64,000 bases of DNA from Leptolyngbya sp. FACHB-8 (GTDB taxonomy: Bacteria; Cyanobacteriota; Cyanobacteriia; Elainellales; Elainellaceae). Shown here piece by piece: positions 9,329-63,734 of this stretch. Under the pieces are notes generated by a model. It was not told the origin of the DNA. It saw only the letters and a list, made by a program, of their open reading frames with translations, and made no database searches. Each line of letters starts with the position of its first letter. Within the stretch, counting starts at the first letter, position 1. The stretch spans positions 1 through 64,000 of the forward strand of contig NZ_JACJOO010000053.1 in the NCBI RefSeq assembly GCF_014695575.1, in the 5' to 3' direction. Both the position numbers and the translations under genes were made by a program.

Positions 9329-9333
9329 TCGGT

Positions 9334-9412
9334 AAACCTCCTGCATGAATCGGTTTTTGAGGGTGTCAATTGTTGCGCGGCAAAGCTACGCAACAATTGA
9401 CACAGGAAGTCT
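9334..9412. repeat. Family C repeat element, copy 1
   Basis: The element starts with ACCTCCTGCATGAATCG and ends with CAGGAAGTCT. The inner arms 9364-9377 and 9389-9402 pair perfectly over 14 bases. The outer ACCTCCTG pairs with CAGGAAGT with one mismatch. A second copy is at 51697-51775, and a degraded one at 33322-33390. It follows the GH10-like gene and could also end its transcript. Confidence 0.8.
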
Positions 9413-10499: not shown

Positions 10500-10605
10500 T
10501 ACAGCACTTTTCAAGCCTATGAGGTACAAGTTATTTTTGTGAGAGCCTCGCTCCGCGAGGCTCTCACAAAAATAGCTGCATTTTATTCAAGCGCAAAGCG
10601 CTGTA
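10500..10605. repeat. Family D repeat element, copy 1
   Basis: Terminal inverted repeats TACAGCACTTT and AAAGCGCTGTA (one mismatch) bound a 106-base element. Inside, arms 10532-10551 and 10555-10574 pair perfectly over 20 bases. Copy 2, at 63630-63734, has the same layout with different but still paired inner bases. The element lies between a terminator and ppk2. Confidence 0.8.
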
Positions 10606-10711: not shown

Positions 10712-11695
10712 ATGCCTCACAAGAAGCCGGATCTCGCTATGAACCCTAAAAAGCTTGATGAGTTCGTAACATCCACCAACGGCAGCTCATTAATGGCTTC
10801 CCAAAAGAAGAAAAAATCTAAAAAGAAGAAATCTAAAGAGAAACAACTCAAAGAAAAACATTTAGAAGAAGCCAGTCCTCTACATTTAGAGAAACAAACA
10901 ACCGAGGATGAAGGAAGTTCCAAACTCACCAATAAATACTACGAGAAAGAACTGGCGAAGCTACAGCTAGAGCTGGTCAAAATGCAGTATTGGGTAAAGT
11001 TTACCGGAGCCCGGATCATCATTGTGTTTGAAGGGCGGGATGCCGCCGGAAAAGGGGGCACCATCAAGCGCATTACTGAGCCAATGAATCCACGGGGATG
11101 TCAGATTGTGGCTTTGGGAACGCCGAGCGATCGCGAAAAGACCCAATGGTACTTCCAACGCTATGTGGCGCACCTGCCTGCTGCGGGCGAAATTGTCTGC
11201 TTCGATCGCAGTTGGTACAACCGGGCCGGGGTTGAATATGTGATGGGCTTTTGCTCTGCCGATGAGCATCGGGAGTTTCTACAAACCTGCCCTGAGTTTG
11301 AGCGGATGCTGGTGCGATCGGGCATCATCCTACTGAAATATTGGTTCTCCGTCAGTGATGAAGAACAGGAGCGCCGCTTCCAGGCTCGCATGACTGACCC
11401 CGCCCGCCGCTGGAAACTGAGCCCAATGGATTTAGAGTCGCGCGATCGCTGGGTCGAATACTCCAAAGCAAAAGACGTGATGTTTGCCCATACCAACATC
11501 CCTGAAGCTCCCTGGTTTACCGTCGAGGCCGATGATAAAAAGCGGGCTCGGCTCAACTGCATTCACCATATTCTGAGCAAAGTTCCCTATGTCGATATGA
11601 CACCAGATCCTCTAGAACTGCCGCCACGAAAATCTGGTGGAGGGTATGTGCGACCTCCGCGAAACGAACAGTTTTTTGTACCAGAAGTTTACTAA
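10712..11695 (+). CDS. ppk2: Polyphosphate kinase 2 (PPK2)
   Basis: PPK2 moves phosphate between polyphosphate and nucleotides. The P-loop kinase domain (about residues 72-310) has Walker A GRDAAGKGGT (108-117) and the lid/Walker B region FDRSWYNRAGVE (164-175). The first 70 residues are a low-complexity, lysine-rich extension, with KKKKSKKKKSKEK at 32-44, likely disordered and perhaps polyphosphate-binding. Later starts (ATG for Met10 or Met28) would shorten it. The single-domain layout suggests the class I group, which mainly uses ADP or GDP; that is inference. ppk1 lies 24 kb away in the same window. Confidence 0.93.
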   Translation: MPHKKPDLAMNPKKLDEFVTSTNGSSLMASQKKKKSKKKKSKEKQLKEKHLEEASPLHLEKQTTEDEGSSKLTNKYYEKELAKLQLELVKMQYWVKFTGARIIIVFEGRDAAGKGGTIKRITEPMNPRGCQIVALGTPSDREKTQWYFQRYVAHLPAAGEIVCFDRSWYNRAGVEYVMGFCSADEHREFLQTCPEFERMLVRSGIILLKYWFSVSDEEQERRFQARMTDPARRWKLSPMDLESRDRWVEYSKAKDVMFAHTNIPEAPWFTVEADDKKRARLNCIHHILSKVPYVDMTPDPLELPPRKSGGGYVRPPRNEQFFVPEVY

Positions 11696-11780
11696 ACCTG
11701 AATTCAGGTTAAGGGCGTTTTCGAGTGCCGCGCGACGCGCGGCACTCGAAAACGCTCATTTTGGCGTAACTTCCGTTTAG
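11695..11780. repeat. Family A repeat element, truncated copy 1
   Basis: The palindrome AACCTGAATTCAGGTT (11695-11710) overlaps the ppk2 stop by one base. It is followed by the family A first hairpin: arms 11715-11734 and 11736-11755, 20 bp, perfect. The sequence then keeps CTCATTTTGGCGT but lacks the second hairpin and the outer closing arm. Full copies are at 16621-16744 and 53404-53527. Confidence 0.8.
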
Positions 11781-14160: not shown

Positions 14161-14255
14161 CAATACTCTGGACAGTTTTTCTGAAACCTTTGATTTTGCG
14201 TGCGCGAAGCGCACGCAAAATCAAAGGTTTCAGAAAAACTGTCCGAACTAATGTT
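14161..14255. repeat. Family B repeat element, copy 1 (36-bp perfect arms)
   Basis: Arms 14170-14205 and 14209-14244 are exact 36-base reverse complements around the loop GAA, giving the apex GCGAAGC. The flanks CAATACTCT on the left and GAACTAATGTT on the right recur, inverted, around copy 2 at 50105-50200. No target duplication is evident. Confidence 0.9.
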
Positions 14256-16580: not shown

Positions 16581-16628
16581 CTCAGTTTTGTGAATGTGGC
16601 AGACTTCGCCACATTCACAAAACCTGAG
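16581..16628 (+). terminator. Hairpin after the secreted-protein gene, overlapping element A2
   Basis: CTCAGTTTTGTGAATGTGGC (16581-16600) pairs with 16608-16628, with one bulged base. Its right arm ends in AACCTGAG, which is also the first arm of repeat A2. The two folds therefore compete for the same bases. Confidence 0.65.
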
Positions 16629-16744
16629 TTCGGGTTAAGGGTGTTTTCGAGTGCCGCGCGACGCACGGCACTCGAAAACGCTCATTTTGACGTGCGCAAA
16701 GCGCACGTCAAAATGAGCACTTCAGCTTATCCCGAACTGAGGTT
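16621..16744. repeat. Family A repeat element, full copy 2 (three-way junction)
   Basis: The outer arms 16621-16639 and 16726-16744 pair over 19 bases with two mismatches. They enclose hairpin 1 (16641-16660 with 16662-16681, two non-Watson-Crick positions) and hairpin 2 (16680-16697 with 16701-16718, 18 bp, perfect, loop AAA). The element is 124 bases, the same length as the copy at 53404-53527. Confidence 0.88.
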
Positions 16745-45465: not shown

Positions 45466-45564
45466 AACTCAACTTCGGGTTCAGGCCTTTTTCGAAGGGA
45501 TTGCTTCGCATTTCCCTTGAAAAAGCCCTTTTCGGCGCGCTTCGGCTTATCCCAACCTGAGGCA
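45466..45564. repeat. Divergent family A-like element, copy 4
   Basis: AACTTCGGGTT and CTTCGGCTTATCCCAACCTGAGG match the two outer arms of family A. The interior has one hairpin, CTTTTTCGAAGGGA with TTTCCCTTGAAAAAG, whose apex includes GCTTCGC (45503-45509). The second hairpin is missing. It lies between convergent genes. Confidence 0.55.
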
Positions 45565-50104: not shown

Positions 50105-50200
50105 AAACATTAGTTCGGACAGTTTTTCTGAAACCGTTGATTTTGCGTGCGCGAAGCGCACGCAAAATCAACGGTTTCAGAAAAACTGTCCAGAGTATTG
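50105..50200. repeat. Family B repeat element, copy 2 (36-bp perfect arms, inverted orientation)
   Basis: Arms 50117-50152 and 50156-50191 pair exactly over 36 bases around GAA, apex GCGAAGC. ACATTAGTTC on the left and AGAGTATTG on the right match the flanks of copy 1 (14161-14255) in reverse orientation. One stem pair differs from copy 1 and is compensated. Confidence 0.9.
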
Positions 50201-50258
50201 TATAAAGAAGCTATGAAGATGAATTATTACCCAGGCTACTTTGTTCTTTCAGAAACAG

Positions 50259-51643: not shown

Positions 51644-51696
51644 GGGGGAGGGGTGAATGAGTGGGGGCAGGCACGTTGTTTATAACACCCTACACT

Positions 51697-51775
51697 AGAC
51701 CTCCTGCATGAATCGTTTTTTCAGGGCGTGAATCGTTGCGTAGCTCCGCCACGCAACGATTCACGCAGGAAGTCT
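51697..51775. repeat. Family C repeat element, copy 2
   Basis: The element has the same ends as copy 1 (AGACCTCCTGCATGAATCG ... CAGGAAGTCT). Its arms 51726-51741 and 51751-51766 pair perfectly over 16 bases (GCGTGAATCGTTGCGT). Copy 1 has a different but paired inner sequence. Confidence 0.8.
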
Positions 51776-53403: not shown

Positions 53404-53527
53404 AACCTGAGTTCGGGTTAAGGGCGTTTTCGAGTGCCGCGCGTTGCGCGGCACTCGAAAACGCTCATTTTGGCGTGCGCAAAGCGCACGCCAAAATGAG
53501 AACTTCGGCTTATCCCGAAGTGAGGTT
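53404..53527. repeat. Family A repeat element, full copy 3 (three-way junction)
   Basis: The element is 124 bases, like copy 2. The outer AACCTGAGTTCGGGTTAAG pairs with CTTATCCCGAAGTGAGGTT at the far end with a few mismatches. Hairpin 1 has GCGTTTTCGAGTGCCGCGC and its exact complement. Hairpin 2 (from 53464) has CTCATTTTGGCGTGCGC, loop AAA, and its exact complement. One hairpin-2 pair is G-C here and A-T in copy 2. Confidence 0.9.
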
Positions 53528-63629: not shown

Positions 63630-63734
63630 TACAGCGCTTTTCAAACGCTTAAAACTTGGTTGTTTTTGTGAGAGCCGCATGGAGCGCGGCTCTCACAAAA
63701 ACAACCGTGGCTGATTCAAGCGCAAAGCGCTGTA
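63630..63734. repeat. Family D repeat element, copy 2
   Basis: Perfect 11-bp terminal inverted repeats TACAGCGCTTT and AAAGCGCTGTA bound 105 bases. The inner arms 63658-63678 and 63686-63706 pair exactly over 21 bases (GGTTGTTTTTGTGAGAGCCG and one more). Copy 1 at 10500-10605 has the same frame. Confidence 0.85.

Follow-up and report, generated by a model that had tools for sequence, protein, structure and literature searches.

A high-copy, hairpin-bearing MITE family of IS982 type in Leptolyngbya sp. FACHB-8, with compensated stem changes and inverted hairpin spacers

Nezha is reportedly a cyanobacterial MITE, and it can be likened, by description only, to the 124-nt repeat reported here, as both are short inverted-repeat elements of cyanobacteria. 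Among the MITEs of Anabaena sp. 90, one group is given a predicted structure of three inverted-repeat sets (PMC3542288); these MITEs are short inverted-repeat elements too, but as presented there they bear no similarity to the insertion sequence (IS) ends of their genome (type II), and the likeness is again one of description. ISs of the IS982 family have 5'-AC ends, inverted repeats, direct repeats of variable length and a DDE transposase of ~290 aa, and the family lists a Nostoc member, ISNsp1 (PMC7335449). The 124-nt repeat has the 5'-AC ends and the variable direct repeats in common with these ISs, which in contrast are ~1 kb long and coding; the word MITE is absent from the main text of that account (PMC7335449). 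An IS982-derived MITE has been described in the Cardinium endosymbiont of Oedothorax gibbosus (PMC9769881). Like the 124-nt repeat, it is non-autonomous, lacks a transposase, is present in high copy number and has inverted repeats that closely resemble those of an IS of the IS982 family. It differs in its length of about 240 bp and in sharing its genome with the parent IS, and the main text of its description contains neither 'hairpin' nor 'secondary structure' (PMC9769881). None of the matches listed from the openly licensed literature on IS982 MITEs has the architecture described below; as far as the literature searched goes, this IS982-type MITE family is new, and its hairpin module is unusual.

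Template switching in hairpins has been described as one kind of event that yields arm homogenisation, compensated changes and inversion of the loop or spacer, and the earlier cases include 69 clusters with loop inversions, found in reconstructed histories of rRNA, and 10 inverted spacers from genes of yeast (PMC8794818, PMC8604942). In contrast to those rRNA histories and yeast genes, the present repeat provides at least 17 and at least 15 spacer changes among 56 and 55 copies, respectively, of one family in one genome. By title, none of the matches listed from the openly licensed literature links bacterial hairpin MITEs with template switching.

Architecture, copy number and insertion sites of the element

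The stretch of DNA analysed (the window) comprises the first 64,000 nucleotides of contig NZ_JACJOO010000053.1. A sequence-only reading had pointed to two full copies of a repeat with a common length and fold, together with a truncated and a divergent copy (Table 1). Both full copies are indeed 124 nt long and are 93% identical, and their single-stranded DNA, folded with a few flanking bases, reaches -54.9 and -59.8 kcal/mol (z ~ -12; 0 of 200 shuffles equally low). The order of parts is the left end AACCTGAGTTCGGGTTAAG, hairpin 1, hairpin 2, a short linker and the right end, which reads CTTATCCCGAACTGAGGTT in the copy at 16621 and CTTATCCCGAAGTGAGGTT in that at 53404. The latter is flanked on both sides by a 5-bp target-site duplication, ACTTT. 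No duplication is visible around the copy at 16621, whose left end is overlapped by another hairpin; this terminator-like hairpin at window positions 16585-16623 extends into the first bases of the copy. The truncation at 11695 was read correctly and lies inside hairpin 2, and the first base of this copy is the last stop-codon base of a polyphosphate kinase 2 ORF. The divergent copy at 45466 is a relative insofar as it retains end-like sequences and a hairpin-1 remnant; because hairpin 2 is absent and the fold does not stand out from shuffles (z -1.35; 22 of 200 equally good), it is classed here as a decayed relative only. A scan of the window against Rfam at gathering score returned tRNA as the only match, with no structured RNA family for the repeat.

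Table 1. Coordinates of the element copies in the window and of the parts of the copy at 16621
Feature	Position	Strand	Remarks
Full-length copy, subfamily A1	16621..16744	+	124 nt; flanked by a 157-aa ORF and a convergent transketolase gene
Left terminal inverted repeat	16621..16639	+	AACCTGAGTTCGGGTTAAG; end type is that of the G016 elements and L293
Hairpin 1	16641..16681	+	19-bp arms; 3-nt spacer GAC at 16660-16662; two mismatched or wobble pairs in this copy
Hairpin 2	16682..16716	+	16-bp arms; 3-nt spacer AAA at 16698-16700
Right terminal inverted repeat	16726..16744	-	minus-strand reading AACCTCAGTTCGGGATAAG
Second full-length copy	53404..53527	+	flanked by an Orn/Lys/Arg decarboxylase gene (-) and a 137-aa ORF (+)
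Truncated copy	11695..11780	+	ends within hairpin 2
Decayed relative	45466..45564	+	end-like sequences and hairpin-1 remnant; hairpin 2 gone

The expectation of many copies in the genome was borne out, as the terminal motif with up to three mismatches matched 619 times in the 6.93-Mb genome, compared with 6 matches for the reversed control, which would correspond to roughly 300 elements; the exact paired-end pattern gave 117 matches (control, 0). The terminal inverted repeats (TIRs) are 19 nt long and imperfect, and the 124-nt element carries no transposase gene. Hairpins and target-site duplications were analysed in 81 copies of exactly 124 nt, a sample biased towards copies with good ends, drawn from 117 TIR pairs of all lengths in the sampled loci of this genome, a set that includes chance or nested pairings. 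An identical duplication of 4-6 bp lies directly outside AACC...GGTT in 65 of the 81 copies (4, 5 and 6 bp in 49, 12 and 4 copies, respectively), compared with a mean of 3.3 and a maximum of 10 copies when the flanks were re-paired at random (1000 shuffles). The element ends are (A)ACC...GGT(T) and the commonest target letters are T-ANNT-A, short and AT-rich, so that the duplication can also be read as 6 bp around ACC...GGT. In 464 kb of sampled sequence (the window plus further stretches of the same genome), 0 of 18 copies lay inside ORFs of at least 120 codons, compared with 75% of random placements, a count that a gene split by an insertion would escape. A search for an empty insertion site in G001, one other genome of the genus, gave two matches, both away from the insertions, and the insertion site is therefore read from the duplications only.

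These results also bear on the three-way junction proposed by the sequence-only reading, which had overlooked the mobile element, its target-site duplications and its IS982 parent. The outer stem and the two hairpins are present, but the outer stem consists of the transposon ends; since conservation of these ends is expected for transposase sites, the outer stem alone does not argue for a three-way-junction RNA.

Shorter derivatives of 80-84 nt exist, some with duplications (for example L025 and L256). Three palindrome-like elements of 80-81 nt (L108:2155-2235, L221:597-677 and L230:569-648) have two left ends around one hairpin and no right end, the form expected if one half gets copied onto the other. 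In an 83-nt element (L256:649-731) the outer halves of both hairpins are fused via a GTGCGC/GCGCAC core; GCTTT is found on both of its flanks, and this deletion derivative thus also appears to transpose.

IS982-type transposases and relatives of the element in other genomes

The IS982 transposase model NF033520 had no match above its cut-off in the genome of strain FACHB-8, and the autonomous partner was therefore sought in relatives. The one weak match, of 23.7 bits at C91, was rejected as the parent IS, being below the cut-off of 130 and having no such TIRs within its locus. In G001 we found a 969-bp element (L293, 1308-2276) that has the ends AACGTGAGTACGGGATAAG and AACGTCAGTACGGGTTAAG, is flanked on each side by AGCT and contains an open transposase frame, which scored 260 bits against NF033520 (cut-off 130) and E 2e-68 against PF13612, and which is 71% identical to an IS982-type stretch from G016, a genome from the same family but a different genus. 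G016 itself holds four elements of 933-990 bp (L068, L077, L083 and L091) with the same end type around transposase frames, some of them broken; a stretch from one of them shares 63-72% identity with the frames in the remaining three. The TIR scan covered 30 loci (L062-L091), namely the PF01609 matches in the FACHB-8 genome (G000), G013 and G016, and TIR pairs 0.9-1 kb apart were found in the four G016 loci. A 120-aa IS982-type stretch from G016 had no match in G000 or G013. Absence of the parent IS from its own genome weakens a claim of present mobility, not of origin, and the FACHB-8 copies may now be stranded. Taken together, we conclude with strong confidence that the repeat is a non-autonomous transposable element (MITE) of IS982 origin, which adds a high-copy, hairpin-bearing family of this type to the cyanobacteria.

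The hairpin form was found in 3 of 60 genomes (G000, G013 and G016) and is absent from G001, and the exact paired-end pattern occurred in 9 of 388 genomes of the class, with 117 matches in G000, 63 in G016, 18 in G013 and one in each of six others. Three of the four loci in Kaiparowitsia implicata have the hairpin form. Three genera agree in the arm, spacer and total lengths of their consensus. In other cyanobacteria, six elements of 124 nt share the ends but do not have the two big hairpins (four folded, two judged by reading). They show similarity above shuffles for the hairpin-2 outer arm (p 0.001-0.03) and the linker (p 0.0065-0.055), and none above shuffles for the hairpin-1 arms (p 0.06-0.66) or the hairpin-2 inner arm (p 0.1-0.9); this pattern is suggestive of hairpins that arose by palindromisation, with the right end as the source.

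On its own, the terminal motif is found widely among bacteria (at least 80 loci), and several cyanobacteria contain short elements bounded by ends of this kind. Elements of ~120-300 nt with IS982-type ends were also seen in many unrelated bacteria (L121, L123, L144, L154, L166, L179, L186 and others), including Arsenophonus, Calothrix and an Alteromonadaceae genome. MITEs of the IS982 family thus seem to be common in bacteria.

Compensated stem changes and spacer inversions

Selection for a structure is usually demonstrated by covariation, and ~300 dispersed copies that combine compensated changes with spacer inversions could allow mutational and selective explanations to be separated by counting. 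The sequence-only reading had set the hairpin-2 arms TTTTGACGTG/CACGTCAAAA of one copy against TTTTGGCGTG/CACGCCAAAA of the other; the arms are exactly as quoted, both sides differ, and compensated changes extend far beyond this pair. In an alignment of 42 distinct copies, the first distinct rows of the copy lists (27 from FACHB-8, 6 from G016, 8 from G013 and 1 from Kaiparowitsia), standard pairs fill 98.0% of the cells in hairpin 1 and 99.6% of those in hairpin 2. Two-sided changes affect 16 of 35 hairpin pairs and 2 of 17 pairs of the outer stem, that is, of the TIR pair; the whole structure holds 205 two-sided changed cells compared with 69 in shuffles, while the number of further pair types showed no excess over shuffles (45 versus 44.6; 261 of 500 as high). 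Stem changes are compensated both within the FACHB-8 genome and between genera. Pair 21-59 retains stepwise intermediates, with CG in 66, TG in 7, TA in 7 and CA in 1 of the 81 copies. The 65 copies of subfamily A1, out of the 81, contain 66 mismatched stem cells versus 38 compensated ones, and this persistence of mismatches indicates that arm homogenisation is far from complete. Half-changed pairs were G.T versus A.C in 23 versus 33 cases in A1 and 7 versus 4 in A2; by this weak test G.T is not clearly above A.C, and hence there is no sign of wobble tolerance on one transcribed strand.

The 3-nt spacers, counted in closed stems, vary in a different manner. Among 54 closed A1 stems for each hairpin, the hairpin-1 spacer is GTT in 27 and AAC in 22, and the hairpin-2 spacer is AAA in 27 and TTT in 21; the members of each pair are reverse complements of one another, three bases apart, with few intermediates. 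The hairpin-1 spacer of A2 is TTC in 9 and GAA in 2 of 12 stems. Eight copies identical at the 118 other positions include four combinations of the two spacers (AAC with AAA in 2, GTT with AAA in 3, AAC with TTT in 2 and GAC with TTT in 1). Divergence from the consensus per site is 0.44 in the spacers versus 0.03 in the stems and the rest of the element. On a tree of the copies built without the spacers (56 copies for hairpin 1, 55 for hairpin 2; few variable columns), the spacers require 17 and 15 changes, respectively, compared with 16.8 and 15.7 for shuffled labels. Among the other sites, 21 vary in 4 or more copies; 19 of them need fewer changes than shuffled labels (sites 103 and 119 do not), for example site 21 with 4 versus 11.5 and site 5 with 4 versus 9.0. 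The tree, however, was built with the help of these sites and without the spacers.

In the relatives, the evidence for flips is weaker, since most of their spacer pairs (GAC/GTC, CGG/CCG) are one base apart and flips are there inseparable from point mutations. The 18 copies of G016 have the hairpin-1 spacers GAC (11) and GTC (7) and the hairpin-2 spacers GTC (10), ACC (5), GAT (1), GAC (1) and ATC (1), with a skewed orientation in hairpin 2 (GTC 10 versus GAC 1; ACC 5 versus GGT 0). Among 20 copies of G013, hairpin 1 has CGG in 4, CCG in 3 and CAG, CGA and GCG in one each, and hairpin 2 has GTC in 10, GAC in 4 and ATC and GCC in one each; the rest are without a clear 3-nt spacer.

The spacer flips seem to be local and do not seem to involve the whole hairpin. 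Mismatch 21-59 reads TG in 7 copies with the spacers GTT (4), AAC (2) and GAC (1), and CA in one copy with GTT; mismatch 70-86 reads TG in all 3 copies that have it, with the spacers AAA, TTT or GAA. Inversion of whole hairpins (cruciform flipping) as the usual cause of the flips is disfavoured, as the outer mismatches mostly keep their configuration, in what are small numbers. The spacer inversions in otherwise identical copies are a footprint of template switching, which copies arm onto arm and can produce compensated changes in one mutational event, so that covariation need not mean a kept fold; that the fold must be kept because both sides had changed, as the sequence-only reading concluded, is therefore not a necessary inference.

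Candidate explanations for the hairpins

The reading that we favour, and hold to be likely, is that of an IS982-type MITE whose hairpin arms are copied onto each other by template switching. An IS982-type transposase, once in the cell, would have recognised the ends and thereby spread the element, and the 'outer stem' would be the pair of its sites. At DNA replication the polymerase would, as the spacers suggest, switch template between hairpin arms or strands; such a switch would invert the spacer in place and could copy arm onto arm, and the arms would thus stay complementary, with changes showing up as compensated pairs. Taken by their parts, template switching between hairpin arms is probable and a retained structural function of the hairpins is possible. 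The compensated changes need no selection for the fold, and it is possible that selection still acts; the fold is real, and DNA copying between arms probably accounts for at least part of its upkeep.

Selection for the hairpins as a functional RNA or DNA structure, whether for transcript protection or insulation or as a cruciform in transposition, would explain the same stems by classical compensatory evolution and is compatible with template switching; because the two can act together, the confidences attached to these explanations overlap. The nearly complete pairing of both stems, the two-sided changes in 16 of 35 hairpin pairs, the stepwise intermediates and the lengths held constant across the consensus of three genera all fit selection, but the spacer inversions indicate arm-to-arm copying, G.T is not clearly above A.C among half-changed pairs as a wobble-tolerant RNA of fixed strand might show, six 124-nt cyanobacterial elements with the same ends do without the two big hairpins, and Rfam offers no match at gathering score in the window besides tRNA. 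This selective explanation appears doubtful to us. Gene conversion between ectopic copies, by which spacer variants of few origins would have spread, is less plausible still: the high copy number offers many templates and the A1 copies are very similar, but the 3-nt spacers behave unlike 19 of 21 other sites on the tree (a test that is partly circular), and the conversion tracts would have to be a few bases long.

For flips in perfect hairpins, assembly error is a serious rival. Such an artefact would be expected to look much like the A1 counts, as an assembler working with short k-mers cannot tell a spacer from its reverse complement in a perfect hairpin, and coin-tossing would give proportions near 50:50 that are random on the tree. 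Both orientations are nevertheless found in A1 copies with a stem mismatch no more than 8 bp from the spacer, where a 19-mer fixes the orientation: in hairpin 1, 14 such copies have GTT (6), AAC (4), GAC (2), CTT (1) and AAT (1), and in hairpin 2, 12 have AAA (6), GAA (2), TTT (2), TTC (1) and TCT (1). Furthermore, the hairpin-2 orientation in G016 is skewed 15 to 1 over two spacer types, and short k-mers alone would hardly resolve ~300 repeats of 124 bp into 95 contigs, which makes an assembly artefact quite improbable. Two sub-terminal hairpins in a short high-copy element also resemble single-strand elements of the IS200/IS605 type (PATE or REP/RAYT), in which a Y1 transposase would recognise the hairpins. 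To our knowledge, IS200/IS605 elements make no target-site duplications, but 65 of the 81 copies have them and the TIRs are those of DDE-type IS982 elements; an assignment to that group is hardly credible.

Beyond the favoured reading of an IS982-type MITE with arm copying, the hairpins could be a self-renewing module. Every cycle of replication or transposition would take the element through a folded, single-stranded form in which the arms would be copied onto each other and the spacer flipped, so that the family would become and stay perfectly palindromic. We regard this extension as speculative and rather unlikely. If it held, mutation would be the main source of covariation in high-copy hairpin repeats, and a genome of this kind would contain hundreds of template-switching records. 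The present family is a warning that hairpin MITEs should not be called structured RNAs from covariation alone.

Other hairpin repeats were seen in the same genome. A second family, with the ends TAGACCTCCTGC/GCAGGAGGTCTA, is present at window positions 9333-9412 and 51696-51775 and at loci L299-L328; it gave 43 matches, some of them the reverse strand of the same copy, with 40 of 72 candidates scored. By eye, it has apparent 3-bp duplications such as ACT or ATT, and its tips occur in the reverse-complement forms GAA/TTC, AAA/TTT and GGA/TCC, so that the inversion of spacers may extend across the genome. A repeat of 94 nt, palindromic for the most part, lies in opposite orientation at 14161-14254 and 50108-50201, with a compensated change of CTTTG/CAAAG to CGTTG/CAACG and a GAA spacer inverted relative to its flanks. 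A further hairpin repeat, at 10530-10605 and 63659-63734, shows stem differences that are compensated (A/T to G/C), and its copies share a tail ending in GCGCAAAGCGCTGTA.
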